Assembly: GCF_036711975.1 (NCBI RefSeq) | Contig: NC_091972.1 | Span: forward strand, 30,881,001-30,945,000 | DNA from: Onthophagus taurus | Lineage: Eukaryota; Arthropoda; Insecta; Coleoptera; Scarabaeidae | Length of the DNA stretch: 64,000 nucleotides | Reading direction: 5' to 3' | Part shown: positions 4,551 to 56,932 of the stretch, one piece after another | Layout: every line of letters starts with the position of its first letter | Numbering within the stretch: position 1 is the first letter of the stretch | Notes under the pieces: model-generated | Told to the model about the DNA's origin: nothing | Database searches by the model: none | Seen by the model: only the letters and a program-made list of their open reading frames with translations | Translations under genes and position numbers: made by a program

Positions 4551-5820
4551 GTACATGTCGCAGGCAAATGGTTATTTCAGGTAGATATCTTCTTCCTAGT
4601 CAGATACTGTCTGCCTAGGCAAACAGTAGTTCGTTACAGTTTTATCATTAAATGTCTAGGCAAATACTATTGGACAAGACAAATAGTATCTGTCTAAGCT
4701 TGTTTTAGGCAAATACCATTTTTTCGATACAACAATGGAATATAGAGTAGGTACCTGTTCTAAATAAAGTAGTTCCTATCGTTATCAACCTGCTTTTCTT
4801 AAATTCAAGTCACTAATGAGTGTCAAACGAGTCAAATTACTTATACTAAATACAAAAATTTACTAGTTTTGACAATTCTTGCTGGAATGGCATCTACTGT
4901 TGCATATCATCTTATTTTTGAAACAAGTACACCTTTTTGTACTGCACTAAAATTTCGAAGGCTGGAAGAAAACAGCAGAAAACAGTGATTGTGAAGTACA
5001 GGTCTCTCTTAATATAGCATTCATGGGGTTGGGTTGGGTTGGTTTAAAGAGCTATTTGCCTGAAAATATTTTAGCCATATACTGTACGAAGGAGTAGAAT
5101 TAATCCACAAATGTAAAAAAAAATTTCGAATGGACCTTCTAGAGATGATGGAAATATATCGGCACAACAATCAAAAAAACACTAAACTACTCAACGGCCA
5201 ACTCGAATTTAAATATATGCCTATATTTACATATTTAAAGTTAAAAATTAATTTTATTTAAATTTATAGAATTATGGGTTTCGATCCATACAATAGTGCC
5301 ATCTCGTAACATTTCGTAATATCTGTAAAAACAGGTCTTGTTTTTCGTTTTTCGTGTTTTCATGTATCGTTTGACACACGCTTTAATTGTACGTTTATAA
5401 GTTCGTGTATCTGTGTTGTTTTATAATTTAGTTATTTTATTTACATATAAGGGTTATTGTATTATAACACTAAACTCATAAAACCTTTATGACATTTCAC
5501 GTTCTAAGAAAAACAGTTTTTTCCACTTGACTGTAAGTATTTTATATAAAAAACAAAAAAATTTTCAACGAAAAAACAAATTTGTAATCCTTTTTAATCA
5601 TAGATTCGACTGATGATGGTTTTATAAGCCGAAACTAGTATCGAGAAAATAAAACAAGCGAGTGAGAAGTTGATCTATATTCATTTTCCTTTTAATATAC
5701 TATTTGCCTAGGAAAGTAGAATTTAGACTGAAATAAATGTAATAAAACTATTTGCCTAGGCAGATAGTATCTGACTAGGAAAAAGCTATTTACCTGAAAC
5801 AACCATTTGCATGTGGCATA
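4551..5820. mobile_element. Inverted-repeat element with CCTAGGCAAA subrepeats
   Basis: The left arm (about 4551-4690) and right arm (about 5697-5820) are inverted copies. Each reads inward as GCAAATGGTT, TTTCAGGTA, TCCTAGTCAGATACT, CTGCCTAGGCAAA. Inside the arms the palindromic core TTTGCCTAGGCAAA recurs several times. The roughly 1-kb interior has no coding sequence but holds the hammerhead-like motif at 5605-5645 close to the right arm. The layout fits a foldback or MITE-like DNA element. No target-site duplication was defined and the superfamily is unknown. Confidence 0.6.
5605..5645 (+). ncRNA. Hammerhead-ribozyme-like motif
   Basis: Core CTGATGA (5610-5616) and GAAA (5631-5634). Helix II is 5618-5622 with 5626-5630, including one G-U pair and a 3-nt loop. 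The self-complementary ACTAGT overlaps the second core block and would form helix III. Helix I is 5605-5609 (TTCGA) with 5641-5645 (TCGAG). The predicted cleavage triplet is GUA, ending at 5640. One unpaired U (5617) sits between CTGATGA and helix II, which departs from the canonical core. Helix III is only two pairs in cis, so activity would probably need a dimer. This class is known from Penelope-like elements and retrozymes. Confidence 0.6.
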
Positions 5821-6985
5821 CATACAACCCAAATGTTATTCTGGCCAACGAGTTTTCAAGGCACAATGAAAGTTTTAGACGCCGCCGTTCTATGCCTATT
5901 TTGCTTTTTCACGTTGCTATATTATGTTCTTTATAATAAAGTATGTTAATAAAGTAAATTATAAAGTAGTAAACTAAGTTAATATGGGATAATTTAAGGC
6001 ATAGTGCGCAATAATATGCATTAGTTAATTCTAAGTGAAGATAGTCTGTAGTAATGTAGACGATACAGATTTGTATCAGATGCAGTCATCAACAATACCA
6101 ATGATACATGCCAATTTGCAACAATGTATACAACTTCTAGTAAGATATAGACTTTTAACAATCTAGATGATATGGGATAGTCTCAGATATAATGTTCAAT
6201 AACATAAATGACTTTTGTTAAAAAAGGACAGTGTATATGTTGCTTATATTAAAGTGGTAAACATGGAATAAAAATAAGGAATAATCTCAGACATCGTGCG
6301 TGGTGGTATATTGTTACTATTGCTAGGGTAATTTCTAGGTAATCCGTAGTAATGAGAAGATGGAAGCTAATGTGAGACATACATAATTTTGGCTAATATA
6401 GAGCGGAGGCTAATACATAACTGTAATAAAGTAGGTAACATGGAATTGTGACAGGCTGATGTCATACATCCTGAAAGACAAAAGTAAGAAGAAGGGCAAA
6501 TTAATATTGTGGTTAGATTATGAATTTACCAAAATACAAGTACATACTACTAAAATATATGATATAGTCATTGACCTTAGGTCAGGAGGAAGTAGGTACT
6601 TACTTTGATTTGTTGTTTGTTCGTTAGACTTACCGGTCAATTTCTGTTAAGATTAAACAACTGATGCTAGGTTATCAAAAAGAAACAAAATTTTGTGATG
6701 AAGTTACACAAATAATAAATCTGAGCCCAGCAACATAAGAATCTACAAGGAGACTGGTTCCTTTATCAGTATAATCCAAATATGAATCCACCAATGAATC
6801 TTTCGAAAAGAGATGTCAAGTACATATTGTTTTTTTTTTTTGCATCAAAACTTTAATTGTCTTTTATTAAAGTTTGCCTAATTTCATATTGACATGGGGA
6901 TAGAATTCCGATCCTAGACCATTTAGTGTTGAATCAAAGTACAAATATGTGGAAATAGTTGATGGAGTAAAAAATTAGCAAGAAA
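5821..6985. other. Intergenic DNA, no supported feature
   Basis: AT-rich sequence with no convincing ORF and no identified terminal repeats. A run of T at 6830-6841 and a TTTATTAAAG stretch lie just before the Tc1-like relic. Confidence 0.4.
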
Positions 6986-7130
6986 CACGGAAAAATACTT
7001 GAAATGTTATTACCTAGCATAAGGAAAGACGAAGGCAATTTTTTGATTTGCGTTGAACTCAAACACTGGATTTAAATCCAATTGAACATGTGCGGCCACG
7101 TTAGGTCAAGCGAATACTGAATCATATAGA
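6986..7130 (+). pseudogene. Tc1-like transposase relic (C-terminal DDE motif)
   Basis: Around 7065-7125 the + strand reads LDLNPIEHVRPR, a stop, then VKRIL. This matches the Tc1 transposase C-terminal signature (sPDLNPIEhvWd.LgrRi) that contains the third catalytic acidic residue. An in-frame stop and loss of flanking similarity show a dead fragment. The DxD region and the terminal repeats were not found. Confidence 0.55.
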
Positions 7131-7499
7131 AGCTTTTTGAAAATTACCGTTAATAAACAATTTAATTTTAGTTAAAAACAATGCAGTATACAACTGTTTG
7201 TTGTATCAAGACTGTCAAGTTTTGTTTTGTGTGATTAACTTTTGTTATCTAGTTATATAGGTTGTTACAGAATAACTATTCCTAATTTTTGGGAAATGAC
7301 ATAAAAATTTCTAATCATCTTGCTATATTAATTTTTCTCCTATCTTATAATGTTTTATAAAACGTTAGATTACATTAATGTTGGATGTAGATTTTTCTCC
7401 TTCATTGAATTTATAATATAACACATGATATGGGATATGTCCAAACAGTAGTGTTATAATGTAAATTAATGGTAAGGTAAGGAAGTGTCATACATTGTA

Positions 7500-7690
7500 T
7501 GTAACAACAAAGCAGAATAATCTAACGGCGTTAAATTGCATATGTCTTCAATAGATCAATGGTTTGACCAGCTGTATGGCATGTGACACCATCTTATTAG
7601 AACCACTTGTCACTGATTTCAAGTTCATCCCGAAGATACTTAGGAAATTCGGGATGTTTTTCAAACTTTATCAGGGCCCACCATTTTGAG
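7500..7690 (-). pseudogene. mariner/IS630-type transposase relic
   Basis: On the reverse strand the region reads PKYLRDELEISDKWF, two stops, then DGVTCHTAGQTIDLLKTYAI. This corresponds to the WFQQDGATCHTA...TIDLL block around the second catalytic Asp of mariner/Tc-type transposases. The two stop codons sit where the family has QQ. Only this block is preserved. Confidence 0.5.
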
Positions 7691-9011
7691 AAATTCCGTC
7701 GCTTCAACTGCTGAAGAGGGTTCAGTTCTTGAGTTAATTTGATCTTGTTGCGCTATCTCACTGGTACAGCAACATTCAATAGTGAATACTGGAATTGATC
7801 CACTACAACACGCACAGCCTGTCTGGTATTATGACCGAATACTAGAATAAGCGATCTTAAAGTTTGACTGAACTGATACTATTCGATTGTGAACTTTTCG
7901 ATGATAAAAAGGTTCACCTGGGGGATAGAGAAAGTTGATATGGATCTAAGATCAATATGCAAAAATCAGTATAAACATAGGAATAGGAAATTGTAGGTTA
8001 CAGCTCTAAGTTCCTTGCTTTTGAAACTCATCGTCAATATTGGACTGATAATATTTATTTTTCGAATTAACTGAAGTATTGTAAGATCGTTTGGAAACTG
8101 GATACCAAACTTCAAGATTTTAATTTACATGCCAAAACACTTAAGTTTTGAAAACAAACTTATTTTTAATGATTGTGATGTGGTTATAGAAAAAATAAAA
8201 GTGTAAGCATGTTTGTTAATCACTTTAATGTTATTCCTAAATCGCTCAGAGATTATTTTGAAGACGCGATACACAAAAAGAGACGGTGTGTAAATATATA
8301 TTGTTTGTATATATTGTTTGATTTCGCCATGAAATTGTGGTGATGCTTCTTACAATTAGAGATTTCCTTCACGTTAGTGTAAACACATAATCTAGAGTTT
8401 CCTTATGTGTCCATAATTAGAATTTTCATCACAACCGTTATAACAACATGTATTACATAACGTTCGCTATAGTGGGGAACTTTACAGAGGAATAAAAACT
8501 TTGTATGTCATTGACATTGATTTGTGGCTTTCTAAGGCTCAGGGAAAAAATGAAAAAATAGTTAATTAATTTTACCAAGTAGTTAAAATCAACTATATAA
8601 AGAACATTAAAATTAAATATTGTATAAAAAAAATTGGATACAACTTTTTATCCATACAAAAAAATCCCTTCAAAACGTTATTCACCTTGAAACGTAATTT
8701 AAATCTAATCGTTTTTGTTCCATCTATTTATTTTTTCACCAAAGAAAGCTATTAAAATAGAAAAAAAACTGAATGGCTAAAAATAACTCAAATGATTACC
8801 CATTTCAGTTGAAAAATGATCATTAATAGTTTACAATATGTATATAAAAAATAATTATCTTTAGAGGTTTGAAAAGGATGACAAACACCTCATAATTATT
8901 TAGAAGGAAACTTGTCGATTCGACTTCGACCAAAATAATTACTGCCTATTATTTTCGACACCTTAATTGTGACGTCAACTATTTAAATGTGTTGATGCGT
9001 TCGTACGCATA
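7691..9011. other. Intergenic DNA upstream of the first CSP gene
   Basis: No supported gene or element. The last ~100 bases before the TATA box are less AT-rich and include GTCGATTCGACTTCGAC (about 8914-8930), which could be an upstream regulatory segment. That is a guess based on position only. Confidence 0.35.
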
Positions 9012-9047
9012 TATAAAAGTCGCATACTAAATTGGTCATCAATCAGT
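9012..9047 (+). promoter_or_regulatory. Core promoter of the 9.1-kb CSP gene (TATA + initiator)
   Basis: TATAAAA at 9012-9018 is followed 31 bp later by TCAGT at 9043-9047, the arthropod initiator. The spacing fits transcription start at the A of TCAGT (9045), giving a 5' UTR of about 59 nt before the ATG at 9104. Confidence 0.75.
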
Positions 9048-9103
9048 ACGAATCGTGTACATTTTGTGTGCAGAACAAACTAAAATAATTAGAAAAGACA
9101 AAA

Positions 9104-9546
9104 ATGAAGCATATTCTAGTCGTTTTGTTTGCTTGTGTTTTGGCTTTTGCTTATGCCAGGCCAGACGATAAATATACTACTAAATACGACGGAGTTGATT
9201 TAGATGCCATTTTAAAAAATAAACGTTTGTTGCATGGCTATATTAATTGTTTATTGGAAAAGGGGCCATGTAGCCCTGATGGAACTGAATTAAAGAGTAA
9301 GTGTTAAAAAAAAGACCTATTTATTCACTTTTATGATTATTTTATACAGATAATCTTCCCGATGCCATAAACAACGGTTGCTCAAAATGTAGTGAAAAAC
9401 AAAGAGAAGGTGGTAAGAAAGTTCTTCGTTTCATTATCGATAATGAAAGGGCAGCTTGGGATGAATTGGAGAAGAAATATGATCCTTCTGGTGAATATAG
9501 GAAGAAGTACGAAGCTGAGGCTAAAAAAGAAGGAATTAATTTGTAA
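9104..9546 (+). CDS. Chemosensory protein (OS-D/A10 family), 129 aa
   Basis: Two exons: 9104-9296 and 9350-9546. The 53-bp intron (GTAAGT...ACAG) splits a codon after its first base just past Lys64, the conserved phase-1 CSP intron position. Residues 1-18 form a signal peptide. The mature N-terminus contains [16 protein letters not shown], and Cys49, 56, 75 and 78 give the diagnostic C-X6-C-X18-C-X2-C pattern. Exon 2 carries LPDAI, a Gln after the last Cys pair, the W-D-E-L-E-K-K-Y-D motif, and ends KEGINL. CSPs are small soluble helical carriers of hydrophobic ligands, secreted into sensillar lymph or other fluids. First of six copies in the window. Ligand and tissue cannot be told from sequence. 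Confidence 0.95.
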
Positions 9547-9698
9547 ACAAAATGATGATTACTCTTATTCTTTTCAATCAAAATCTGTGCCAATGATGAC
9601 CAATATTCACGCAAACCTAATGAGTCCTATAGTCTCTTGTTTTTTAGCTGAGCATTTAAAAAAACCAAAAAAAAATTATAAATTTGTTATTTATATTT

Positions 9699-9704
9699 AA
9701 TAAA
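9699..9704 (+). terminator. Poly(A) signal of the 9.1-kb CSP gene
   Basis: AATAAA lies 153 bp after the stop codon. It is the first canonical hexamer in the 3' flank. Confidence 0.6.
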
Positions 9705-12700
9705 AAAGAATGTTATTAATTATTATGGCTTGTTATTTTAATGGGTGACAAATAATTATAACTATTTTATTGGTTCTGAAGTTCTGAGTGTTTCGATAGT
9801 TAGCAAAACGAAGGCGAATATTTTCAAAGAATCATTATTGTGTATAATTATGACAATTACGAAATAATTAAAACTTTCTATTTTAAAATTTCGTAAAAGA
9901 ACAAAAGCTTACCGGTATACAAGTATAAAAAATCACATTTACTTCATGTAATTTCAGAAATAATTTTGATTTAAATTGTAAGAATTTCATCATATTTTGT
10001 GTAGCCTTTGAAAATTCAATTTTAATTATCGTTTCTCTTATTCAACTTGAAACATTTTTCATAAAAATTACAACGTTTGTTGGCAGATTAAGTGTTGAAC
10101 GTTTAACACTGTTTGTGAAAAATCAACAACTATTCATCAATCTAAATTGTGTATTATCCGATAGTGCTTTAATTAAATTAGCCAAAATGGCTAACTACTT
10201 GATGTAAAATGGCATCAATTAAAATCTCTTAAAACTGCTTAAAATGGCTGAAAATTAAAATAAGATTTGATTTATGTGGATAGCATTAATACCTGTCTGG
10301 ATATGATTGGGTAAATAAATTTAGCAGGGGCTGAGTGTTGAGTTATGTTACTGTGCAAAATATTACCTCAACGTCATCCGACCAGAATCGGTTTATAATG
10401 ATGAATAAAACGTATCCTGTCAACTGATTCAAAGCATTCTTAAAGTTTTAAATGCAGAAGATGTGACCGGACTGCAACAAGTTGCATAAATAGATCCTTC
10501 TATAAAAAAGGTTTTTTTGGATACTATTAAATAAGTATAAGGATTCTTGAAATGTGAAAGTACATTCACCATTAATAGATTACCAAACCCATTCAAAAAA
10601 GGTCATCCTAACATTGGAGTAATGATGGCACAAAATGGCACTTACAATAAAATTCTAAAAGATCTAGTTAATATTTCCAATGACAATCTCTTTGAATCCA
10701 ACAATAAATCAATTTTAATAATGAACGACAAAAAGACGACCTAACAGCAAATATATGAAATGAACAAGGGTATAAAGGATTTATTGTTAGCATCTCCTTT
10801 ACTAGATCTATGTCGATGGACATTCTTCTGACGTAACTTTCCATGCAACTAAATCCTGTCAAGAAAATGGCATCATACTGATTACACTCATTTCAATCTC
10901 TACTCATTTTATCTAACACGTGAATATTGCTGTTTTTCGTGTTGGCAATTAATATCGAGAAATTAATCCTTTACTCTTTACCAGAAACTACGAAATCTGC
11001 ACAATGGTTTCAGAGCTTCTCACTCTACATTTCACTGAAATTCTTAGTGGTAATGATAACCGTTCAGCTACTAACAATGGTGTCGTTATAGGAAACATTA
11101 GAAGATCTATGTTTTCTGGAGTCGCGAATAGATAAAGAAAAACGTCTGTCGTTTCAAAAATCATCGTGTACATTGAGTTAATGGTTTCATTGTTTCAACT
11201 CTGGTGTAATATTACTCAAGACTATAATGATCTTAAAAATTATGGTTTGCCAGTTAATAAAGTTTTTCAGATAAAAATTGTGATGAACAGACATGACCGT
11301 TTTTGAAAATGAAATTGAATGTGATACTATTAATGTAATAGAAGTTTTGTGTTCTGATTATGTACTTTCAAGAAGTAACAAGAAATAAATGTCAATTCAC
11401 AAGTTCAAAATCAAAGTGAGACAAAAGTATTGATTGAAACCAGTTTGACCAGAATTAAAAGATACTAGGAAAAAGTGAGAGAAGGAAATATACCATATAT
11501 TGCCACATCAGTGCAATGGTAACAATGCTACTAATACTATATAAGATATTTCAAAACTCCGCCTTGTCTTCTTGTACAAACCTAAGTTTATTTAACTATT
11601 TCCATCCAGTTATGTAATAATTCCAAAACTGTATGTAATAGTTGTTCGGTAAACAGATGACACACTAAGACAGAAAAAATGATGTAAAATGAAAAATTTT
11701 ATACTTAAATTGTCAAAATGATGTATTAGAAAGCAAAATGCCAAGAACATGTCAGCAGGAATGAAAATATTAAATTAAGAAACTGAAATAATATCATCGC
11801 TATGGGTAATAAGCACACATCACCACTTTTGGACGCAGTAATACTACAAAACCTTATCTATTCTTATCATCGACAGATGCGAAGTAGAGTATTTAAAGAT
11901 AAATTAGGCATCCTGGGAAGAAATCAAGTTTACAATTAACCAAACCACTCCAACTTGCATTATTTTTATACAGAATGTACAAAAGAATAAAAAGCTAAAT
12001 GATGCAAAACTAAAACAAGTGGTATAAACTGAGAAAATATTTTGAGAATAAGTGACAACCCCGCCATTACATGAAACAGTGAACTACACCTTTCACACAT
12101 ACCGCTTGTAATTAAGCCTTAAGCATGGAGAAGGTTAGTTAATCTACACGATTATAATCATTTTTCTCCCATGTATTTCCTTATCCCTAACTTGTACTGT
12201 TGGGATTTAGAACATATCTGTTATATGATTAATGTTACCGCTCCTTATCTAGGCTATTCAATCAATCATCATAAGTAAAATGTTAAGATGTGCCAAGACG
12301 CGTAACATTGTGATTTCATTTAATTGATGCTGACAGCTGTTGTTGTTGGGATTATGCTGGAATCTGCTGTATCTGAAATTTCATGAATATGAGATTGTAA
12401 CATAGAATCTGGAAGACCCGCTTAAATAATTAATTGAGAAGTTGACATGATGAAGTTCACATCTTTTTAAACTGAATATCCATTGTATCATGTGGTAGCG
12501 ATTTAGGTTAGCATTAATACGTGTCGTCTACCAGTTATGGCATTAAAATGTGCAAAAACTAGATCCAATGTGTTCTGATAATCATTGAATTATGTCAAAC
12601 CACATACTGCTGTAATACTTGTAGTCATTGAAGCTCTTCTAACTTGGGATCTTCACAAAACATCAATATATCATTCGAAAATTGTTGAACTAAAATAATA

Positions 12701-12870
12701 ATCTGATCTATAAACGAATATCAGACTTAATTGATCTAGTTTTGTTTGTAAATATAAGACGCCTATAGAGACAAACTAGTAAGAGATGTCTCACTCACAG
12801 CATCAATCCTCAAGAACCGATCTGAATATTTAGATTCAAAGCAAACAAACAAAAATATTTAATTAATAAT
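9705..12870. other. Intergenic DNA between the first CSP gene and a ribozyme-bearing repeat
   Basis: About 3.2 kb, AT-rich. Short ORFs at 10547-10744 (+) and 10988-11173 (-) have no recognisable domain and no flanking gene structure. The texture between 10.3 and 12.5 kb is less AT-rich and could be old transposon sequence, but no motif could be assigned. Confidence 0.4.
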
Positions 12871-12985
12871 GATTATTATAATTAGGTTGAAATTGAAGTT
12901 AATATCCATTATGCCAGTTTGTTTAACGTGATAGAAAAAATTTTTCGAATTTTGTTGTACTTTTACTGGTTTATTTAAATTTTTG

Positions 12986-13025
12986 TTGTCTAACTAGTTT
13001 CGGCAAAAGCCATCATCAGAGACAA
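12986..13025 (-). ncRNA. Hammerhead-ribozyme-like motif, left arm
   Basis: Read on the reverse strand: helix I TTGTCT (13020-13025), core CTGATGA (13013-13019), an extra U, helix II GGC/GCC around TTTT, GAAA, the self-complementary ACTAGT, then helix I partner AGACAA (12986-12991). Identical to the copy in the opposite arm. Six helix I pairs are perfect. Confidence 0.6.
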
Positions 13026-13300
13026 AAGTCATTGTAATTCTTTTACAAAACTTTAAAGATTTAACTCCGCATGGACATCTTTTGTGGTAGATCTGTAACA
13101 TCAGACCATCTTGTAACATCTTGATGTTACAGACCATCTTGTAACATCTACCACAAAAGATGTCCATGCGGAGTTAAATCTTTAAAGTTTTATACAAGAA
13201 TTTTTACATGTATTTTAAGTAAATTTTGTGACAGTAATAATTTTAATTTGTTCACCGCTTTATATTTTCGATGTTAATTGCCTATAAGATACAATGACTT

Positions 13301-13340
13301 TTGTCTCTGATGATGGCTTTTGCCGAAACTAGTTAGACAA
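13301..13340 (+). ncRNA. Hammerhead-ribozyme-like motif, right arm
   Basis: Helix I 5' strand TTGTCT (13301-13306), core CTGATGA (13307-13313), unpaired U at 13314, helix II 13315-13317 with 13322-13324 closed by TTTT, GAAA at 13325-13328, short helix III within ACTAGT, predicted cleavage after GUU (13334), then helix I 3' strand AGACAA (13335-13340). Confidence 0.6.
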
Positions 13341-13689
13341 CAAAAATTTAAATAAACCAGTAAAAGTACAACAAAATTCGAAAATTTTTTCTATCACGAT
13401 TATTATAATATTAATTAATAATTTCTAATGATTGTTTTATAAAATAAATAATAGTCATACAAAGTAATAATAATTGACAAATTTTTTTTAATTACCAATC
13501 TTTTCAGTACTATTAAATATAGTTTGACGACATAATTTTCTCAGAATTGTTTGTGAATGACTAAAAATGACTTGAAAGTACTTAATTCTATTGAACCCGG
13601 TTTTATAAACGTTTATCAAGTTAATCAAGGTTTAATTTGATGTTGATTCATCATTTTCGCTTGCCAATTCACTAACGCATCGGATTAGT

Positions 13690-14685: not shown

Positions 14686-14734
14686 AATATGTTCAAATAC
14701 AAAAAAAATGATATAAAACGTTACATCAAATCAC

Positions 14735-18189: not shown

Positions 18190-19325
18190 AGGCGAAAAAA
18201 CGTTTCTGAACGTCGTCCTGGTTTTGCAGAAGTACCACAAGGGTCGATTATCGCACTTCGAAGTTATTGAAGGACTTAAAGTACTGCACGGGACATACGT
18301 ACGCTGATGATAGGCAGCTATATGTATCTTTTGCACCCGACGACCGGCAAATAGCTCTCCAGAACCTAAATAGTGACTTAAATCAATTATATCAATTAAC
18401 ACTAAAGTATAATCTCCACTTGAATCCTTCTAAGTCTCAAGATTACCAATTTTATTCGGTAGTTCTTTGGTGATCAAATCGCTTACCCCACAATTTACAA
18501 TTAGTATTAATAATTAGACTAAAACTAGAACTAACACTAGCACTATCACTAGAACTAACACTAGACCTAGAACTAGAAGCTATCGGGTTAAGAAGTGCGT
18601 TTTTTGAAAAAATGTTTCGTCAAAGATTTTTTCAAAAAACGCACGGCTTAACCCGAACGTTTCTAGTTCTAGATCTAGTGTTAGTTCTAGTGATAGTGCT
18701 GGTGTTAGTTCTAGTATTAGTTTAATTAACACCGGCCGTGAAAGCCTTCCTACTTATAGTATTAATAATGTTACTATTCCGATAAGTGAAAGTGTAAAAA
18801 ACTCGGGTGTTATCATGGATAACTCATTTAGATACAAAGAGCAGATTTCGCTACTTATGCGTAGAGCATATGCCAGTCTTCGTGCATTATACCCTCATCG
18901 TCGCTGTTTGCCGTTAACACTAAAGAAACGGCTGTATGATTCACTGGTTCTATCTCATTTTGTCTACTGCGCTCAGCTTTACCATACCTCAACTGATAGT
19001 ATTGATACTATACGCATTCAAAGAGTGCAGAATGCTTATTTGAGGTTGAGGCTCCTTTAAGTCTACCCTTGTCAACTTGCTAATGAGAGATCAATAGCTT
19101 TTACTTTTATTTTTTTTTTTTTAATTTATTTTTATTTGTATTTACCTTAACTATTCTCGTTTGCCGTGACATTGCTAGCTATTTTCCATTTTGCTTTGTA
19201 ATAAAATTTTCGTTAGTGGGTTGGGTGTGAGCAGGGGCACATTTTTGATGTGCCATCTGGACCCTGCCTTACATATTTTATTTATACATTGTAATTAAGT
19301 TTATTTAATTCAATAAAAGGCATTA
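18190..19325 (+). mobile_element. CR1/jockey-like LINE, 5' truncated, inserted in the RTE-like LINE
   Basis: Contains an RT fragment: VPQGSI, then YADDRQLYVSFAPDDRQIAL, NLHLNPSKSQ. After an inserted MITE it continues with ESVKNSGVIMDNSFRYKEQI, RALYPHRRCLPLTLKKRLYD and SHFVYCAQLYH. The 3' end is an AT-rich tail with TTATTGTTATTA near 19321-19335. A frameshift lies before the YADD box and a stop follows ORF2 at about 19060. The 5' end is missing, typical of incomplete reverse transcription. Confidence 0.75.
18515..18756. mobile_element. MITE, ACTAGA-hexamer family, copy 2, inside a LINE
   Basis: Two inverted arms of degenerate ACTAGA/ACTAAC hexamers (18515-18575 and 18655-18720) flank a central block that also forms an inverted repeat (GTGCGTTTTTTGAAAAAA and its complement). 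The right terminus has the full family end, AATTAACACCGGCCGTGAAAG. A 13-bp direct repeat, TAGTATTAATAAT, flanks it at 18502-18514 and 18757-18769, and the LINE reading resumes directly after. Confidence 0.8.
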
Positions 19326-34000: not shown

Positions 34001-34082
34001 GTAAAAAAGTTATTACAATGGAACAATTCCTACTGGGGTTAAAATGAAAATATTCAGTTTCTGTCATAACTAAGTGGTTAAT

Positions 34083-34196
34083 TTTAAACTAAAATTAGAA
34101 CTAAAACTAGAACTAACACTAGAAACTTTCGGGTTTCTAGTTTTAGTTCTAATTTTAGTTTAATTCACACCGGCCGTGAAAGCTTTCGTACTTATA
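34083..34196. mobile_element. MITE, ACTAGA-hexamer family, copy 3
   Basis: Short copy: a left arm of ACTAAA/ACTAGA hexamers (34083-34130), the shared block AAACTTTCGGG, then an inverted arm ending in the family terminus TTCACACCGGCCGTGAAAGC (34163-34182). The centre is shorter than in the 18.5-kb copy. Confidence 0.7.
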
Positions 34197-45966: not shown

Positions 45967-46523
45967 TTGCCATTGGGTACCATGGCGGTTGAAAATAATA
46001 ACAGCCACTCACTCATATTAATTTGTTAAAGTTATTTAAAGTTGTAATAACCAGAAGAACAGTTTTAAGTTTCATATTTTAACACGATAGCGAAATGAAG
46101 CTAGTTGTATTGTATACTGACAAAAATGCTATGAAATTTACAACTAAGTATATCATGGTATGAGTTACAATAAATTTATTGTTCTCATAACTTTTATTAT
46201 GATTTTTTTTGTAACAGTACATGTTACCGTATATACATATACTAACTTTCTATAGTTTTTTTACAATATAGATTGAAATTTAAACTTGCATTGTAAAAAC
46301 ACAATTTTCGTAATAGAGTAAAATTCCCTTACTACTGTAAATTTACAAAATAGAGAATAAAATTACTTGATAAATTACTTGTAAATTTCTTTCTTGGTTG
46401 TAAATTTTCCGTATAGGGATTAATTTTACCATCTCAACTGAATAATACGATCATATCGTACATTGTAAATCGACGTTATTATTTTTCCCAGTGTATTCAG
46501 GGTTTGTGAATTCAAACTGACGT

Positions 46524-46566
46524 GGTTACTGAAGATGATTTAAATTAAATCGAAACCGGTCTAACC
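46524..46566 (+). ncRNA. Hammerhead-ribozyme-like motif with GUC cleavage triplet
   Basis: Helix I 5' strand GGTTA (46524-46528), core CTGAAGA (46529-46535), unpaired U (46536), helix II GATTTA/TAAATC (46537-46542 with 46546-46551, loop AAT), GAAA (46552-46555), self-complementary ACCGGT for helix III, triplet GUC ending at 46561, then helix I 3' strand TAACC (46562-46566). Both helices are perfectly paired. Sequences differ from the other loci while pairing is kept. Confidence 0.65.
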
Positions 46567-46629
46567 TAAAATACAAAATAAAAATCGATTGAAAAGTGCA
46601 AAAATTGAGTTTCATTCTACGAGTACGAT

Positions 46630-46720: not shown

Positions 46721-47149
46721 AATTCTTCATTCTTCCCTAATAGTACTGTTAAACAACTTTTTATATGTACTCATATACCATTATCAATTAGTTGTTCGTG
46801 TTACAACATGAACTGTGACGAAACACGTAACACATTTAATGTTTTAATAATCTAGTGCGTAACGTGTTATGTATTAAATATTATCTTCCCTCTGAAATAA
46901 TTTGGCGATAAGTTTTATTTTTTATTCTTTGGTTTTTAGTCTATATGTTTGTATTTGTTTAATTCAAATAACAATAAAATAAAAATAACAATAAATACTA
47001 TCATCGTTAAAGTACAACATTTATTTCTCTCCACTTTTATTTAGTCTATATGTTTGATAATTAAATATTTATTTTTATCTAATTTAACTTACTGATGTTT
47101 TACTCATAATCTTATGGTCTCATCTTTTACTTATGGTATAAGTCGGGAA

Positions 47150-48745: not shown

Positions 48746-49450
48746 TCCATTTAAAAATACAAAGGTGACCAATCTTTCGAAAAACTAAAAGCGATAAACA
48801 ATTTTCTATGCTAAATTATTTGGATTAACAAAAAATAAAAATCGAGGATATATAAATTCATTTGAAAACCTTTGTCAAGCAACAATTTCTGACTTTATAT
48901 TTAAATCTAGATTTATTATACATTTTTTACCATTGATTATACCGACATTTGGTCAGCATGGGTTGGCAACGCTGTTTCTGCCATAACGTCATTATTAATA
49001 CATTACTTTTTTCATCCAATCTTTTGTATGTTTAGAAATGCATATTTTTAAACATATTAACTTTAATTCATATCTCTTAAAGATTGCCTGATTTTAGCAA
49101 CTTTTTTTAAATTTTTTTTCCTTTGAAGAGCATAAATTTATGAATAAAAATCTAATCATCTTTGTAGTATACTTTGAACAGCTGTATAATAACAATCTAT
49201 CTTAAACACTTGCAAGATACATGCATTTATAATCATTTTAATTTATAATGTGACTTTCATAACTACCAATTTAATCAAGAAACTTTAGTTTTCACATTTT
49301 TTTTACTCAAACTTATCAACTAAGTATATAACAAATAGAAACCTTTTCAATTTAATTGCCTTCTAATCATTTTATTAAATATCTTATTCTGTTAATTATA
49401 TAAATAAACTTGGCTAGATAATATCACATAACATAATATAAGTCATTGAA

Positions 49451-49750
49451 TTAAAATGCAAAACACAGCATCATTAAAGCAAATCCAACTCTTTCAAATC
49501 GACTCATAATTAAAGCTGCAAGCCCAAATTTAAGTGCAGCTCTAATAACGTGTGGTCTAGAAAAAATAACGATGAGTTTAAGCCATGTGGGAATGTTTTT
49601 ATGTTCGAGACTTTCGTTGTAATTTTGCTGTTGTTTAGTTCTTCGTTCATTCCTAAAATTTCTTTGGTTGTTGATCTCTGCTAATCTAGCTTGGATACAT
49701 GCATATTTATCTAAATTGAACCAATGGTTCATGTGGGTTAGAACCATCAT
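49451..49750 (-). CDS. Unrecognised small protein ORF, 99 aa, head to head with BRD8
   Basis: Starts MMVLTHMNHWFNLDKYACIQ, then a polar stretch (LAEINNQRNFRNERRTKQQQ), and ends with a hydrophobic segment (about residues 58-99: WLKLIVIFSRP, AALKFGLAALIM, VGFALMMLCFAF) that could be membrane-bound. No family recognised. A splice acceptor-like AG lies just upstream of the ATG, so a 5' exon is possible. A 3' poly(A) signal (TTTATT at 49371-49376, + strand) and a decayed duplicate at 42460-42935 support it as a once-real unit. The roughly 500 bp to the BRD8 start would serve as a shared divergent promoter. Confidence 0.5.
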   Translation of the reverse strand: MMVLTHMNHWFNLDKYACIQARLAEINNQRNFRNERRTKQQQNYNESLEHKNIPTWLKLIVIFSRPHVIRAALKFGLAALIMSRFERVGFALMMLCFAF

Positions 49751-50257
49751 AAAATACCCAACTAGTTTAAAAATAAAAAAGAAAAGTATTATTTATATTA
49801 ATAATCCATTTATAACAAACTTACTTATTCCTAACCTTTGTTTTTAGATTGACCCCTAACGTCAAAAATTTGACAGATTTAAATAATAATGAAGTTAGGT
49901 ACATATTTCTTTCAATCAATAATAAACATGTTTATTAAATTATATTTTATCAAAATATGAGTGAGTTAAAAACAAAACAATCGTAGATTAATCATATTTA
50001 TATTTATATTAAAATTTAAAATAAATTTAATCCTTCATAGTTGAAGTCAGTTGAAGTTGACATTACTAACTTCACGCATATTTAGTCAATTTACTTCTTG
50101 AATTATATCATTTAAAACTAATAATGCGTAAGAACTGAGTAGTAATCACTAAATATATACGGAAAAATAATCAAATAACAACAAATTCCATAAAAATAAG
50201 GTAATTCGTTAATATTACGAGTGTAAGCAATACATAACCTCAACATAACCTACAAAA

Positions 50258-52735
50258 ATGACGTCAATACAAGAGCGGCTCCAAATAAAACGTGAACCGT
50301 TGGATAAATGGTCAATAAGAGAACAATTATGTTTAGCTTCGGCTGTTGCAAGAAGTGGAGATCAAAATTGGATGTCGGTATGCCGTGCGTTAAAACCGTT
50401 TGGAGATGCAAACCGCCCGAATGATTGGTTTCATCAGAAAAACTGTGCTGCTCAGTATTGGGCGTTGTTAGAGAATGTGGAGACCCCAAAACGTAAGAAA
50501 AGACCATCAGGAACTCAGGAAGCGGGTATAGAAACACCAGCAGAAAGTATTTTAAAAAAATTAAAAGGAGAACGATTGGCAGAGTTAAAAAAAGTTCTTG
50601 CAGAGGAAAAGAATGAATACACACAGTTACAAGATGACATGAATTTATTAAACTCAGGTAATGTAAGTGAAGAGCAATTAGATAAATGGTGCAAAGAGAT
50701 TGATGATGAAGAAAAAGAGAAAGATCAAGAAGCAGTGAATCATGCAAAATGGTTAAAAGAGAGGGAAGTGCGTAAACAGGAAATTGAAAGAGCATGGAGG
50801 CCTCTTGTTAAAGTTAATGTCAATGCGGGAAATAAAAGAAAATCTTCTGACAGTGTTGATAATCAAACCGAAGGGGAAACTCCAATGGAAGAAGGTACCC
50901 CTACACAAACCCCTGAAAAATCAGCTCAATCACCATTATTAACAAGCTTATTGAAAACGCCATCTCATGCTCAAACAGTTGCTACTTCTTCTATTTTACA
51001 TACAGCAATGAGTAATCAAAGGCCAACAACGACAAATCCAACAATAGCAAGTTTATTAAATTCATCAACTAATGTAACAGTTTCTCCAAGTCTTCAACAA
51101 TTAGTAAGCACAGCAATTGGTCAAGAACCGCAAACAGCAGTTCAAGTTGTTGAAACAGAAATTGTTACCACGGATAATATTGATGATCCAGATAACATTC
51201 TAACAAATATAAAAGTAGAGGACATTGAAAGTACTATCTTAGCGTCTGGAGATACCCTTCCTGAAATCAAAGATGAAGAAGTCGAAGTAATTATTTCCGA
51301 TTTGATTCAAAATGGTGAAATTGTAGCTGATCCCGAGGAACATCTGCAGTTAGATGGTAACGTTGACCTCATGGAAAACTTAGAAAACGAACTGCAGGAG
51401 CTGGTGAAAGAAGAGGAGAACGCGGCGGCTTTAATCGAAAGCGTTATTCAATCGAAAGATGAGTCATCCGTTGAAGTAGATCCTTTTGAATTTCAAGAAG
51501 AAGAAATTTACGATCAACCCCAACTTAAAGTTACAGCACAACAAGAAAAAGAAATCGAAGTTAAAGAAGAAGTTGAGGTTTTTGAACAACAAAAACCCCA
51601 AATCCAAGAGGCCAAAGAAGTCGTTGAAGAACCAAAGAAAGGTTCAGTAGAAATCGTCGAAGTCGTTGTAATGGAAGATGAGGAAATCGATAAAGAACTT
51701 AACAAATCACAAATTGAAAACATCGTTCATTCGAATCCAAAAATTAAAATCATCGGTAGTGTTGAAGATTTAAAAGAAGAAATTAAAGATGAAGAAGATC
51801 TAAAAGAAGATTCATGTGAAGAATCAACAGCCGAATCGCCCGATACAGAGACAAAATCCGATTTAGACACAATTAAAGACACTCCCAGTACAGAAACGAA
51901 CGAAACTGAAACCACCGAAGACACCCAAACGGCCGACTTAAATGATGACCTCTTCGATATGGAAGTAAAAATTGATAAATCTGGAAAAGCAAAACGCGAT
52001 TATACCCGCACTTCTAAAAAGAAAGAAGAAAAGGATTTAGATCTTCTATTCGTTTTAGATAGAACCACAACAATGGAAGAAGAACAAGAAACGTGTTCGG
52101 AAAAGGAATTTTCCGAGTACGAAAATATTAAAAAAGACGTAAAAAGGATTAAGTTGGATAACGAAAGGTCTAATAGTCCTTGGACGGAAGAGGATGATGT
52201 AATTAGTTTAAAATCGAAACGAAGATATTCTACCACTCCGGTTGATTCAATTCCGAATTCGCCGGGATCTACAACGACGAATGAAGAAGAACGCGAATAT
52301 AAAAATTGGAAAAAATCTGTTTTACTCCTCTACAATCGTTTAGCGACGCACAAGTATTCTTCGTTATTCTTGAAGCCCATTACCGATGAACAAGCACCTG
52401 GATATCATACCACTATTTATCGTCCGATGGATCTTTTAACGATACGTAAAAATATCGAAAACGGATCGATTAGAACGACAGTTGAGCTTCAAAGAGATGT
52501 TTTGTTGATGTATAATAACGCAATAATGTATAATAAAACGAGCGATCATGTTTATAATATGGCCACGGAAGCTCAACAAGAAGGTATACAACAGATCCAG
52601 TTGTTTGTGCAGGCTCAACAAGCAGATGCTCCTGTTAGAAGGGAAACAAGAACTGGGGAAAGAGAACCGACGGGGAAGAGGAAAAGGGGGTCTGAAGAAC
52701 CTACTAGAAGTAGTAAGAAGAGGAAGGATGATTAG
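50258..52735 (+). CDS. BRD8: Bromodomain-containing protein 8 (TIP60/NuA4 complex subunit), 825 aa, intronless
   Basis: An N-terminal SANT/Myb-like module (about residues 15-80: WSIREQLCLASAVARSGDQN, WMSVCRALKPFG, KNCAAQYWALL) is followed by a charged coiled coil (about 95-185: LKKLKGERLAELKKVLAEE, WLKEREVRKQEIERAWRPL). A long acidic, S/T-rich linker comes next. One bromodomain lies at about 680-790 (WKKSVLLLYNRLATHKYSSL, YRPMDLLTIRKNIENG, LLMYNNAIMYNKTSDHVYNM) with acetyl-lysine-binding Asn759. The tail is basic (KRKRGSEEP, SSKKRKDD), likely a nuclear signal. This architecture is that of BRD8, a scaffold/reader subunit of the TIP60 (NuA4) histone acetyltransferase complex. The ATG has a good context (ACAAAATGA). 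A single 2478-bp exon is unusual for BRD8, which has many exons in most animals. The open frame and full domain set speak against a dead retrocopy. Confidence 0.92.
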   Translation: MTSIQERLQIKREPLDKWSIREQLCLASAVARSGDQNWMSVCRALKPFGDANRPNDWFHQKNCAAQYWALLENVETPKRKKRPSGTQEAGIETPAESILKKLKGERLAELKKVLAEEKNEYTQLQDDMNLLNSGNVSEEQLDKWCKEIDDEEKEKDQEAVNHAKWLKEREVRKQEIERAWRPLVKVNVNAGNKRKSSDSVDNQTEGETPMEEGTPTQTPEKSAQSPLLTSLLKTPSHAQTVATSSILHTAMSNQRPTTTNPTIASLLNSSTNVTVSPSLQQLVSTAIGQEPQTAVQVVETEIVTTDNIDDPDNILTNIKVEDIESTILASGDTLPEIKDEEVEVIISDLIQNGEIVADPEEHLQLDGNVDLMENLENELQELVKEEENAAALIESVIQSKDESSVEVDPFEFQEEEIYDQPQLKVTAQQEKEIEVKEEVEVFEQQKPQIQEAKEVVEEPKKGSVEIVEVVVMEDEEIDKELNKSQIENIVHSNPKIKIIGSVEDLKEEIKDEEDLKEDSCEESTAESPDTETKSDLDTIKDTPSTETNETETTEDTQTADLNDDLFDMEVKIDKSGKAKRDYTRTSKKKEEKDLDLLFVLDRTTTMEEEQETCSEKEFSEYENIKKDVKRIKLDNERSNSPWTEEDDVISLKSKRRYSTTPVDSIPNSPGSTTTNEEEREYKNWKKSVLLLYNRLATHKYSSLFLKPITDEQAPGYHTTIYRPMDLLTIRKNIENGSIRTTVELQRDVLLMYNNAIMYNKTSDHVYNMATEAQQEGIQQIQLFVQAQQADAPVRRETRTGEREPTGKRKRGSEEPTRSSKKRKDD

Positions 52736-52865
52736 TTTTATTTCATTAGTTGATTTAAATTTTTGAAAATGTTTACTTAAATTAAGTATATGTAGGATAT
52801 CTAATAATTAGATGAATAGAGATTTTTTATTGTTTAAAGTTGTAAATTTTTGGAATACAATTTGA

Positions 52866-52871
52866 AATAAA
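52866..52871 (+). terminator. Poly(A) signal of BRD8
   Basis: AATAAA 131 bp after the stop codon. Confidence 0.65.
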
Positions 52872-53565
52872 ATTTAATGATAAAAATTAAAATTGGGATT
52901 ACTTTACTTTAATGTTAGTTTTATTTTTATTTCTCAACTTAAATTAAAAACATTTTTATGCAAATTGGTCAGTAGTTCACAAAAGCATAAAATAATTGGA
53001 TAACGAAAATATTTTCTAATACATACAACCCAACAATAACTAGTCGATGTTATTATATACAGGTAAGATAATCACTCTTCAGTCCTCAGATATGTGTTCT
53101 ACAATGGGGCCGTTGCCGTCAATCGAATAAAAAGACCGTCTTTCAAAAAATCGATAAACTATGCAAAAATAGAAGGATTGGTAACATTTTCAGATCCCAA
53201 AATTGTGTAATTTTTGCAATAATATTAAAATTCAAAATCCCCTCTATAAAAGCTTTGGTGACGTTTACAAACGTTCACAAACGTGCATCGTTCGGATCTC
53301 TTCTTCTAGCGCATATGATTCTCGTGGCATCTCACTCATGCATCTTTTATTGATTTTTATTTCAACCAACCGTGTGCGAGACGACATTGACGTGTCCCAA
53401 GTTTTTTCAAATTTTCATTATATTTTTTTTGGAAAAGCTAAGTGAAGTCTTCAATTTTGCTAAACTATCGAATAAGCCGATAAAGAAAATTGTGTAGCGG
53501 CCCCATTAAAGATTATGAGTACTAAAATCCCAAACGCAAAGTCGTTTTCATGTAAAATTGAAATA
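52872..53565. other. Intergenic DNA 3' of BRD8
   Basis: No gene supported. The ORF at 53203-53445 lacks any recognisable domain. Composition is less AT-rich near 53090-53400. Confidence 0.4.
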
Positions 53566-54087
53566 ATTGGGAGCAGGTGCGTAGCTACCGCAGTATCAGC
53601 TGTATCAATGATACAGGGCCCCCGAGGTTGGAGAGCCCTGACCTTCGAGGGCCCCTACATTACAAGTTTCAAAAGGATTTAACAGTTGATTAATATGATC
53701 AGCTAATTACTTTCAAAAGTTGCTTAAAATCTGAAATTCAAAAAATCCACACAGTTAAAGGTCTTGTAGAAATGCTTGTTATAAAATTCAATAGCCTCAC
53801 CTCTACACAGAGAGAAAAACTGTAGATAGATTAACTAAATTCTAGTTAAATTGCCTAGAATTCGTGGTTAAAAGTTAGCTAACTAAATAAAATAGGTGTT
53901 ACAACTAATTGAAATTAGTTGAGTATCAAAGTGGCGAATTTAACTATTTATATTTATTAAGTAGATACTTCAATGTATCTTAGTAGTAATACTTAGGAAA
54001 ATAAATAGACTTTTTAGCTATTGTTTTCAGTTACAGTACCTGAATAAACAGCAGATTTAAAGTATTCGTGTAATGTATTAGCTAACA

Positions 54088-54397
54088 AAATAGTAATTTT
54101 AATGTGTAATAATAAACATTTTATAGAAAATAACTTGTTGTTTTAACGACAAAATGTGGATAATTGATCTAGTTAATATTAGTCAATGTAAAAAATTATT
54201 GTTGGTATTACATCGCCTTTTTTTAGGTCTTATATCTAGTCGAAATAGTAATTTTAATGTGTAATAATAAACATTTTATAGAAAATAACTTGTTGTTTTA
54301 ACGACAAAATGTGGATAATTGATCTAGTTTATATTAGTCAATGTAAAAAATTATTGTTGGTATTACAACTCCTTTTTTTAGGTCTTATAGCTACACC
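54088..54397. repeat. Tandem duplication, 155-bp unit x2
   Basis: 54088-54242 and 54243-54397 are nearly identical (for example AGTAATTTTAATGTGTAATA and GTGGATAATTGATCTAGTT in both). They lie inside the left part of the hAT element. The few differences point to a recent event. Confidence 0.85.
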
Positions 54398-54505
54398 TTT
54401 CTAGATATTTTGACTATATATGAAGTAGTTAATCGGACTAAATAGGATAGGTATCAATACAGGTAAATAAATACACATTTATTTCGTATAAATAATAATT
54501 GTTTA

Positions 54506-54715
54506 TTACATAAGAAATGTTACAAAAATGTATACAAAATTTTGTTGAAAATGCTTTATTATGTGGCGTTTAAAAGAATACATAGATTGGAACATTTGTG
54601 GACAAGCAGTGCACGAAAAATTGCACAATGTGTTTTTACACTTGTGGACATATTGCAAATGTTTGAGATAAAGTTTAACGTTTTCAAAAGATTTTGTGCA
54701 TAAAAAACAATTCAT
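54506..54715 (-). CDS. Two-finger C2H2 zinc-finger ORF, 69 aa
   Basis: CFLCTKSFENVKLYLKHLQY followed by VH, and SCTACPQMFQSMYSFKRHII followed by KH, give two C2H2 fingers joined by a short linker. It begins about 40 bases after the stop of the SAMD3-like gene on the same strand. In invertebrate proteins that combine C2H2 fingers with a SAMD3-like body, the fingers are usually N-terminal. Here they lie downstream, so this may be the first exon of a second, truncated copy. No downstream exon was identified. Confidence 0.5.
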   Translation of the reverse strand: MNCFLCTKSFENVKLYLKHLQYVHKCKNTLCNFSCTACPQMFQSMYSFKRHIIKHFQQNFVYIFVTFLM

Positions 54716-54752
54716 ATTAACAAAATTAAATAAAATTTTACAAGATGGTCAG

Positions 54753-56094
54753 TTAACAACTAATCGTTAATTCAGAAATAAGTGTAGTTACCGCAGTGTT
54801 CGAAATATTATTATCCTGTATTTCGTAAAAAAACTTTTCGATGAATTGCCAAGGCTGCAAACACTGACGTTGGTATTGCAAATTGAGAACGTAGTAAATT
54901 TGAAAAGTCACTGAAACCGCCTTTAGGTAGGATTCAACTTTGTATAAAACGTCATTCACATATATGTAAAATTCGTTTAAATTTTCAATATTTGGCCCTA
55001 TAACTAAAATAGTTGGTTGGAGCCTCCATTGCTGCACCTCAAATTCCTTCTTTCTCTTTTCTAAAAATGTTTGAATGTAACTTTTATCCTAAAACACATC
55101 ACATGTTATACAACTTCCTATAATGAAATGTAATAATAATTTAGTCTTACGGTTAAATAGTATGTAAAACAATTTTGCGCATCCAATATGGATGGTCCAA
55201 TTAAAATCCAATTCAAACTGAGAATAAAATCGATTAAGGATAATTATAAATTTAGTTAAAAGTGTTATTACAACAAATTCTTACCAATGTTACCGCAATA
55301 TTTTGATTAAGGATCGGCCAGTTTACGTACACATCCACATTTCCATTTAAAATGTCTTTTCTTCTAATGCCAAAAGTATTTTTCCACTTTTTCTCAACAA
55401 TTTCTATAGGAGACTGATTATATCGTAACCATTCCTTATCACCGCTTACTTTTTCTAAAATGTCTTCACTTTCTTCATTAATTGAATTACTTGTTGACTC
55501 ACTGTCCGTAGAACGTTTTCGTTTGTATTTACTATTAATGATACCAACGTTTCGATATTTTTTTGACAAATTATAATACTTTTCTACTAGTTTTCCTCTT
55601 TTGAAATTTTCACCAATATATGTTACCTGTGAACAGCAATTATATAGCGTCTATTACTTTAATTGTATTATATAACAAACCTCATCCTCTCTAGGAAACA
55701 TTTTTTTAATTTTTTTGAATATATCCTGGTAGACGGCTTTTCCCACTGTTACGTCATGGTCTAGTAAGTACTGGGCTATGATTGTAGTGAGTGCATGTCT
55801 ATTCTTTACACTTAAAAACTTTTGGGCACCACTATCTTGAAGTATTATTTTTCCAGTTATTGTCGACTGCAGTAATTTTTCTAAATCCTTAATACAAATG
55901 ATTTATATTTAAAAGTCATAATAAAAAAAAGTAATGGAAATAATAATTACCAGTGAGAATATGTTGTGTTCATTTTCCTTATTTTCCTCACCTTCTTTAT
56001 CAACCTCAATAGTACTGTTTTCATATAACCAACTGCTTAAGCTAGAGGGTGTTGTACATGCACTTTCGGTGGATGGTAGTGGTGTCAGATATCC
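54753..56094 (-). CDS. SAMD3-like gene body inside the hAT element, 5' end missing
   Basis: Probable exons (reverse strand): 56094-55951, 55887-55681, 55626-55285, 55217-55151 and about 55089-54753, with GT-AG junctions at each intron. Translation gives LEKLLQSTITGKIILQDSG, HALTTIIAQYLLDHDVTVGK, KKMFPREDE joined to VTYIGENFKRGKLVEKYYNL, KEWLRYNQSPIEIVEKKWKN, TFGIRRKDI. The last exon has LQPTILVIGPNIENLNEFYI and VESYLKAVSVTFQIYYVLNL, then a stop. This block order is that of the SAMD3-like family, multicopy in many invertebrates and of unknown function. The phase across the 55217-55151 exon is uncertain. No start codon or upstream exon was found before the hAT 3' part, so it is a captured or truncated gene. 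Confidence 0.6.
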
Positions 56095-56215
56095 CTAAAA
56101 TATTTCCAATGTAATATAAATACATACAGGTGTCCAACGGAAGTGAAACGTAGCATATTATAGGGACACATCGATACAGAGCAAGGATGTCTTTTTGAAG
56201 GTAGTGTTGTTTGCA

Positions 56216-56373
56216 TCACTTCCGGCTATACCGGAAATTTTTTTTTAACGATACAAAAAATTTCTTCGAGTATAAGTATTTCAGAATTAAGTAATGTAAC
56301 TGCTAAAAGAAAAGTTTAAAATTTTTTAAAAAATAATGAAGGTTGTAGCCATTTCCGGTATAACCGAAAGTGA
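56216..56373. repeat. Small inverted-repeat insertion (MITE-like)
   Basis: Arms of 23 bp (56216-56238 and 56351-56373) are inverted with about three mismatches, each with a near-palindromic core (TTCCGGCTATACCGGAA on the left). The ~110-bp AT-rich spacer has no coding sequence. It lies between the SAMD3-like exons and the hAT transposase tail. Confidence 0.6.
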
Positions 56374-56402
56374 TTGAGACATGGCACTATAGCTTCCTAG
56401 AG

Positions 56403-56645
56403 GTTATAACAGCATGTTTTATATTTTTGACGCTTCCGGTTACAACCGCAACTGCTGAAAGAAGCTTTTCTAAATTGAAGCTCATTAAAACATACCTAAG
56501 GACATCTATGGAACAAAATCGACTATCGGATTTATCGATACTGTCCATAGAAAAAGAGGAACTTGAAAAATTGAAATCGTCATCAGCAATGGATGATATC
56601 ATAAATGCTTTTGCCGGAATGAAGTCCAGAAAAGTACTTATTTAA
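56403..56645 (+). pseudogene. hAT transposase C-terminal dimerisation region
   Basis: Reads VITACFIFLTLPVTTATAER, SFSKLKLIKTYLRTSMEQNR, LSDLSILSIE, and a normal stop. This is the hAT C-terminal signature (...lPvTtAtaERSFSkLkliKtyLRs.m...RL..LailSie). The catalytic N-terminal and central parts are absent from the element. Confidence 0.8.
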
Positions 56646-56893
56646 AAACGTAGCATTTTTAGTTATTTGCACATATAGTTTATATCATACACATAAGTTT
56701 AGTTTATAAGTATTGTTGTTTTTGTTTAAAAATAAATTTTTGTTTTTGCGACTGTATATGTATTCTTTATTACCTCAAAAAGGGCCCCCGATATTTTATT
56801 GATACTTCATGGCTAGCTATGCCACTGGTTGGGAGAAATAATATATAAAGATTTTTTGTACTTTTAACTGGTCTTTAAATAAATATAAATATG

Positions 56894-56932
56894 AGTCTTA
56901 CTAGTTTCGGCTATTTGCCATCTTCAGAGACT
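56894..56932 (-). ncRNA. Hammerhead-ribozyme-like motif
   Basis: Reverse strand: helix I AGTCT (56928-56932), core CTGAAGA (56921-56927), an unpaired U, helix II GGC/GCC around AAATA, GAAA, self-complementary ACTAGT, triplet GUA, then AGACT (56894-56898) closing helix I. The 3' flank (AAATAAA...CAGT.AAAAGTACAA) resembles the flank of the 13.3-kb copy, so the two belong to one element family. Confidence 0.6.

Follow-up and report, generated by a model that had tools for sequence, protein, structure and literature searches.

Minimal hammerhead-like motifs with an extra core uridine, probably carried by Penelope-like elements, in the genome of the beetle Onthophagus taurus

Results

Five hammerhead-like motifs in a beetle genome window

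The DNA studied here is a 64,000-nt, AT-rich (31% GC) stretch of the Onthophagus taurus genome (the window), which we compared with 290.8 Mb of the genome in 33 contigs. It carries five short motifs that resemble hammerhead ribozymes, some of them together with remnants related to Penelope-like elements (PLEs; Table 1). An original prediction, made from the letters of the window, had named five such motifs, and all are indeed present: a pattern scan returned exactly five, each was also confirmed by direct reading of the sequence, and a covariance model (R1) of 87 genomic copies, with four rows taken from the window that match by construction, found the same five and nothing else of comparable score (48-55 bits, E 4e-12 to 2e-10; next match 13.1 bits, E 0.65). 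Each motif consists of CTGANGA, an extra T, a hairpin, GAA and ACTAGT or ACCGGT, enclosed by flanks that pair. The flanks had been described as pairing perfectly or nearly so, which stands, with the addition that some pairs are G-U (one in TTCGA/TCGAG, one in the hairpin GGTTT/AAGCC).

In the usual numbering, a hammerhead reads helix I, C3-U-G-A-N7-G-A9, helix II with G10.1-C11.1, G12-A-A14, A15.1, U16.1, H17, and helix I again. Numbered in this way, the window motifs have an extra U after A9 and four bases between A15.1 and U16.1. The base at position 17, which precedes the 3' strand of helix I, is A, T, T, C and A in the five copies in order, and thus provides a UH cleavage triplet. The five loci had been called dispersed; all five are real, but the motifs at 12986 (-) and 13301 (+) sit in the two arms of one inverted repeat, so that the window holds four independent loci, not five. 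With a relaxed core, the window gave five matches, five of five with helices, whereas 200 dinucleotide shuffles gave eight cores in total (about 0.04 per shuffled window), one with helices.

Table 1. Hammerhead-like motifs and associated element remnants in the window (R1, covariance model).
Feature	Position	Strand	Details
Hammerhead-like motif, minimal type I, helix III ACTAGT	5602..5648	+	predicted cleavage after A at 5640; R1 54.8 bits, E 3.8e-12
Hammerhead-like motif, left arm of inverted repeat	12984..13027	-	predicted cleavage after T17 (plus-strand 12992); R1 48.4 bits, E 2.1e-10
Hammerhead-like motif, right arm of inverted repeat	13299..13342	+	predicted cleavage after T at 13334; R1 48.4 bits, E 2.1e-10
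Hammerhead-like motif, helix III ACCGGT	46521..46569	+	predicted cleavage after C at 46561; R1 51.2 bits, E 3.7e-11
Hammerhead-like motif, helix III ACTAGT	56891..56935	-	predicted cleavage after A17 (plus-strand 56899); R1 50.7 bits, E 5e-11
C-terminal remnant of Penelope-like GIY-YIG endonuclease open reading frame (ORF)	5079..5240	+	~365 nt upstream of the 5605 hammerhead; tblastn 62% identity over 47 aa to L037 piece, E 2.6e-12
3' end and pseudo-long terminal repeat (pLTR) of 5'-truncated Penelope-like element	5302..5697	+	91% identity over 396 bp to L037:3716-4104; query began at 5302
Inverted-repeat element, probably non-autonomous, one hammerhead per arm, divergent (-,+)	12936..13390	.	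101-nt arms, 99% complementary, 253 nt apart
Terminal-repeat fragment around the 56894 hammerhead	56832..56988	-	hits to 9 of 99 loci compared; best (L017, L018, L038, L025) 83-86% identity

Most genomic copies have a palindromic helix III

The pattern CTGANGAN{9,24}GAAACNNGT matched the genome 4192 times, against 48 times for the control, the same pattern read backwards. The core CUGANGA and GAA with A15.1-U16.1 is part of this pattern and is therefore present by choice of the pattern. Three hexamers were frequent at helix III: ACCGGT (1852 matches), ACTAGT (907 copies, 861 with T after the core and 46 without) and ACATGT (704 matches); the fourth palindrome, ACGCGT, occurred at chance level (6 matches, control 5). 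Summed over the four, about 3469 of the 4192 matches have a palindromic helix III, a slightly generous figure as the ACTAGT patterns permit one more base between the blocks. Among helix III sequences with AT-only centres, about 1611 of 1764 were palindromic. The self-complementary helix III predicted from the window copies thus holds on the genome-wide set.

In one region of 52 kb, C1:4960720-5012561, ACCGGT-type motifs are much denser than the genome mean, with nine copies. Of these, eight were compared; similarity of their flanks was almost nil and their helices were often poor.

Helices I and II covary across genomic copies

Among 92 distinct copies (rows), helix I formed on average 4.21 of 5 pairs, compared with 2.41 when partners were shuffled (maximum 2.83 in 500). 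Position 10.1 was G in 92 of 92 rows and its partner C or T in 90. At position 17 (H17), left free by all search patterns, A stood in 51 rows, T in 24, C in 15 and G in 2. We aligned 87 of the rows by sequence (A1), five being dropped as identical to others over shorter flanks. In A1 the structure paired 86.9% of cells, against 55.6% after shuffling, 265 cells were changed on both sides (105.8 shuffled), and the covariation score reached 0.827, against 0.255 for shuffles and at most 0.224 for slid controls; the rows are related, and this kinship is kept by the slid controls, not by the shuffles. Two of five covariation measures behaved like shuffles: both-side-changed pairs (7 versus 7.0) and further pair types (29 versus 26.4, a value attained in 27 of 500). 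Across the 87 copies, covariation of helices I and II is strong. The covariation read from a handful of window loci as the mark of a hammerhead fold therefore extends to genomic copies, its absence, named beforehand as a ground for refutation, did not occur, and the hammerhead reading is supported on a much larger sample (87 copies, 4192 genome matches).

An extra base, mostly U, lies between A9 and G10.1

The extra U is located between A9 and G10.1 and would be unpaired. Helix II formed 2.77 of 3 pairs over the 92 rows when one base was omitted, versus 1.18 in the canonical register. The inserted base was T in 861 of 907 ACTAGT copies, in 39 of 41 rows from loci L040-L079 and in 93 of the first 100 ACCGGT matches listed (counted by eye); the overall count, 90 of 92 rows, is biased because the rows from L001-L039 come from a pattern that requires T after CTGANGA. 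The 46 ACTAGT copies that lack T represent only 30 distinct motifs. In 35 of these copies the register with an insertion was still the better one (tied in 6, canonical better in 1, no helix II in 4), and thus the insertion outlives the loss of U. The commonest alternative was C, in 23 of those 35 copies, many of them in one subfamily. The motifs depart here from the usual hammerhead consensus, in which nothing is inserted between A9 and G10.1, a feature that is not strictly defining.

Association with Penelope-like elements

Placement in PLE terminal repeats was sampled in a few dozen copies. A young locus on C14 contains, in this order, an inverted repeat with a hammerhead (966299, -), a truncated 607-codon frame, a hammerhead (968567, +), an uninterrupted 814-codon frame with its first Met at 968673, a hammerhead (971496, +) and a 152-bp satellite. 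The repeats of this element are 99.7% identical over 2296 bp, and the C-terminal part of the ORF matched the Pfam families RVT_1 (E 8.6e-12) and GIY-YIG (E 7.1e-5). Judged by its sequence, the locus follows the PLE plan: a single ORF with reverse transcriptase (RT) and GIY-YIG domains, between tandem or inverted terminal repeats.

We compared nine loci around motif pairs. In seven (L031-L035, L037 and L039) the motif sits within repeats 118-318 bp long; L037 has direct repeats, the other six inverted ones. GIY-YIG was detected by Pfam above cut-off in L031 and below it in L037, and L034 contained a piece of a different retroelement (below cut-off) along with an RT-like match. The pair at L036 (C1:3901000-3909500) is not one element, because it sits in a large tandem duplication of about 4.7 kb that carries a repeat gene related to insect allergens and has one hammerhead in each unit. 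Neighbour orientations were counted among the first 100 matches listed of two classes, all on C1: within 500 bp, 20 of 21 neighbours were -,+, one was -,- and none +,-; within 5 kb, 31 of 39 were -,+, three +,+, three -,- and two +,-. When the RT-like piece of L032 was used as a query, 150 matches were obtained from 150 scored, of 2030 candidates; 12 loci around such matches were compared, and 6 of them have the motif.

A further stretch, C1:31637837-31652201, contains six hammerheads with a 2973-bp spacing, four on the minus and two on the plus strand, and is probably a multi-copy PLE array.

In the window, the copies appear from their surroundings to be remnants or non-autonomous elements. 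The endonuclease remnant at 5079-5240 was matched by three of nine query pieces (those of C14 and L033 in addition to the L037 piece of Table 1), none of which matched elsewhere in the window (tblastn). Matches to the 12936-13390 inverted repeat were found in L020 and in the L031 terminal repeats; for the copy at 46524, none of the 99 loci compared matched its flanks. Placement in PLE terminal repeats was found for C14, for L031 and, of the window copies, for that at 5605, beside its endonuclease remnant. A second inverted repeat with 57-nt arms (13036-13202) is nested in the hammerhead inverted repeat and has a 20-nt direct repeat near its centre.

Discussion

The copies combine the core and the UH triplet with covarying helices I and II, a hexamer for helix III, an association with RT and GIY-YIG sequences and, at some loci, a tandem PLE arrangement. 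They are very probably minimal type I hammerheads in the pLTRs of PLEs and of short non-autonomous derivatives, which would act as dimers and whose fold would tolerate or exploit the extra U. Cleavage, dimer action and a use in transposition we infer from sequence. Whether they lie on the same tandem transcript or on separate RNAs, two hammerheads would pair via the palindromic hexamer to give a dimer with a six-base-pair helix III, predicted to cleave 3' of H17; cleavage would release unit-length RNA from tandem transcripts, possibly for transposition, and the extra U would stand as an unpaired insertion in the core. In cofolding, the dimer energy was below twice the monomer energy in four of four copies.

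Several observations weigh against this interpretation. The expected double-hammerhead pairing appeared in the unconstrained dimer fold of only two of the four copies (13301, with one extra pair, and 56894), and core bases were paired in the minimum-energy monomer folds of all four. Helix I lacks the base pair adjoining the core in 9 of 92 rows. The excess of palindromes could partly reflect founder families; against this account, three distinct palindromes are each abundant, and only four ACNNGT palindromes exist. Upstream of the ORF in six long-ORF elements, only L098 had a sense hammerhead; L097, L099, L100 and L102 had no motif in the stretch examined and L101 had one weak antisense match. 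A covariance-model search had been proposed along with the prediction; R1 finds the five window copies, but the Rfam hammerhead models match none of them: a scan of the window found no family at gathering score, at E<=5 it gave eight families, none of them a hammerhead, and two short window stretches (two copies) matched no hammerhead family at E up to 10. A search of the genome with RF00008 gave no match, but its controls gave no signal anywhere either. Finally, a PLE hammerhead of Anolis cleaved only when PLE protein was added, its mutants left insertion in vitro unchanged, and none of the reads had its end at the site of cleavage (PMC11167929); earlier self-cleavage of a PLE hammerhead at 3-25 mM Mg2+ is cited in the same paper. 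The Anolis results make help by a protein a live option.

Could the motifs be conserved DNA or RNA of a retroelement end that does not cleave but serves another purpose, for example to bind the PLE protein, to signal integration or to provide the context of a start codon? Such a role would suit their position close to element ends (about 70 nt from the end in L031), the reading of A9-U-G10.1 as AUG in 90 of 92 rows of the T-biased sample and the unchanged insertion of the Anolis mutants. It would leave unexplained, however, why CTGANGA, GAA, A15.1-U16.1 and H17 are conserved jointly while helices I and II covary freely. Moreover, the frame that begins at the core AUG is short, with a median of 5 codons over 91 copies (maximum 58, none reaching 60), and the 35 of 46 non-T copies that still pair helix II better with one base omitted likewise speak against such a role. 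We consider a non-cleaving role very unlikely.

The motifs also seem unlikely to be metazoan retrozymes, which are non-coding units of about 150-300 bp, repeated in tandem, that contain type I hammerheads and move in the form of circular RNA. Short non-coding elements exist (12936-13390), and three same-strand hammerheads on C2 lie 194 bp apart (1655713, 1655907 and 1656101), but near pairs are almost all inverted and divergent, as the 20 of 21 within 500 bp among the matches listed illustrate, and PLE coding sequence lies between the members of some pairs spaced 2-3 kb (Pfam, L031 and C14). Direct non-coding tandem repeats of 150-300 bp were not seen among these loci, with one possible exception on C2. 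That stretch as a whole (C2:1655713-1656355), with its three same-strand hammerheads and one inverted, resembles a small retrozyme array. As to chance matches or a generic AT-rich repeat, the base composition of the window might invite the idea, but the shuffle, reversed-pattern and model controls refute it and its probability is negligible.

Minimal type I hammerheads of PLEs were reportedly described by Cervera and De la Pena in 2014 and by Luense, Weinberg and Breaker in 2017, the latter under a title stating that such variants cleave RNA as dimers. Many metazoan genomes contain thousands of them, dispersed or in PLE pLTRs, and they may cleave as dimers (PMC7761336; also PMC6155905); as reviewed, the published PLE hammerheads are without loop 1-loop 2 tertiary contacts or helix III (PMC7761336). 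The present motifs resemble them in being dispersed in thousands, some in pLTRs, in having no proper helix III and in perhaps acting as dimers (PMC7761336, PMC6155905), and may differ in the extra U between A9 and G10.1 of most copies. The motifs belong to this already known kind, and their PLE membership, a published association, adds to the earlier hammerhead reading. The hammerheads of newt and axolotl satellites, which have a one-base-pair helix III and a palindromic tetraloop and work better as dimers, differ in lying in satellite or retrozyme repeats, and the excerpt does not mention an extra U (PMC7229834).

The Poseidon PLE of Anolis has its hammerhead at the junction of pLTR and ORF, and the ORF begins at the start of stem II, after G8 (PMC11167929), a start that would fit, as we infer, an A9-U-G10.1 start codon. 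In the intact C14 element, by contrast, the first Met (968673) comes only after the hammerhead (968567), and the frames of the core AUG are short. A PLE start codon was considered as the cause of the extra U and rejected on the shortness of these frames; the first Met of the C14 element, 100 nt further downstream, disfavours it further.

The plus-strand hammerhead of chrysanthemum chlorotic mottle viroid (CChMVd) likewise has one residue more between A9 and G10.1; there the base is A and the RNA a viroid. When this A was replaced by U, trans-cleavage rose 3-4 fold, whereas C or G proved detrimental, according to a review (PMC3705267); this fits the preference for U here, though C is the commonest alternative. 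Other core insertions were described as rare variants in a 2011 survey (PMC3088659). The suggestion that the extra U may define a new variant class therefore stands in part: the insertion is common here, but a residue at this position is already known from a viroid hammerhead. The literature searched, in excerpt and with most primary papers not among it, held no mention of an extra U in PLE hammerheads, and its commonness in this genome may be the new part of the finding.

It is conceivable, if quite improbable, that the inserted U marks a distinct lineage-wide core in which it both favours catalysis and makes A9-U-G10.1 an upstream AUG; self-cleavage, by removing this AUG, would then switch a silent genomic transcript into a translatable messenger. 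One intact element has the corresponding layout, a tiny frame some 100 nt upstream of the start codon of the PLE. If true, this reading would link catalysis to a translation switch through the extra U.

The role of hammerheads in PLEs was called a mystery in a 2020 review (PMC7761336). In this genome copies number in the thousands, palindromes fall into three abundant classes and there are tandem elements of young age, which makes covariation and dimer use testable at scale. The results also suggest that what stands out in one viroid, an extra residue within the core, can be the norm for a lineage of retroelements. Such copies seem to escape the Rfam models, at least the five of the window.

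Other observations

A small nucleolar RNA or microRNA identity of the motifs was rejected, all Rfam matches being sub-threshold. A PDB sequence search with a PLE piece matched no chain. The pattern scan of viral contigs gave at least 120 stretches; among the 80 loci listed, R1 found 8 at E <=0.1. The best of these, L177:9860-9906 on an IMG/VR contig, scored 31.8 bits, so that the viral matches are mostly chance, and this one is probably chance or a stray element. TTGGG repeats were found at the starts of C1 and C2 and at the end of C1 (L080, L081 and L083), while the start of C7 reads N; (TTGGG)n stands in the title of a lacewing paper, and a paper on beetle telomeres contains the term.

Two long hairpins also lie in the window. 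That at 18584-18655 is near-perfect, scored 45.9 bits with a microRNA family model (cut-off 92) and is perhaps a miniature inverted-repeat transposable element; that at 34076-34171 gave sub-threshold microRNA-model matches. An 828-codon open frame at 50249-52732 (+) has a bromodomain near its C-terminus, and we take its product to be BRD8-like.

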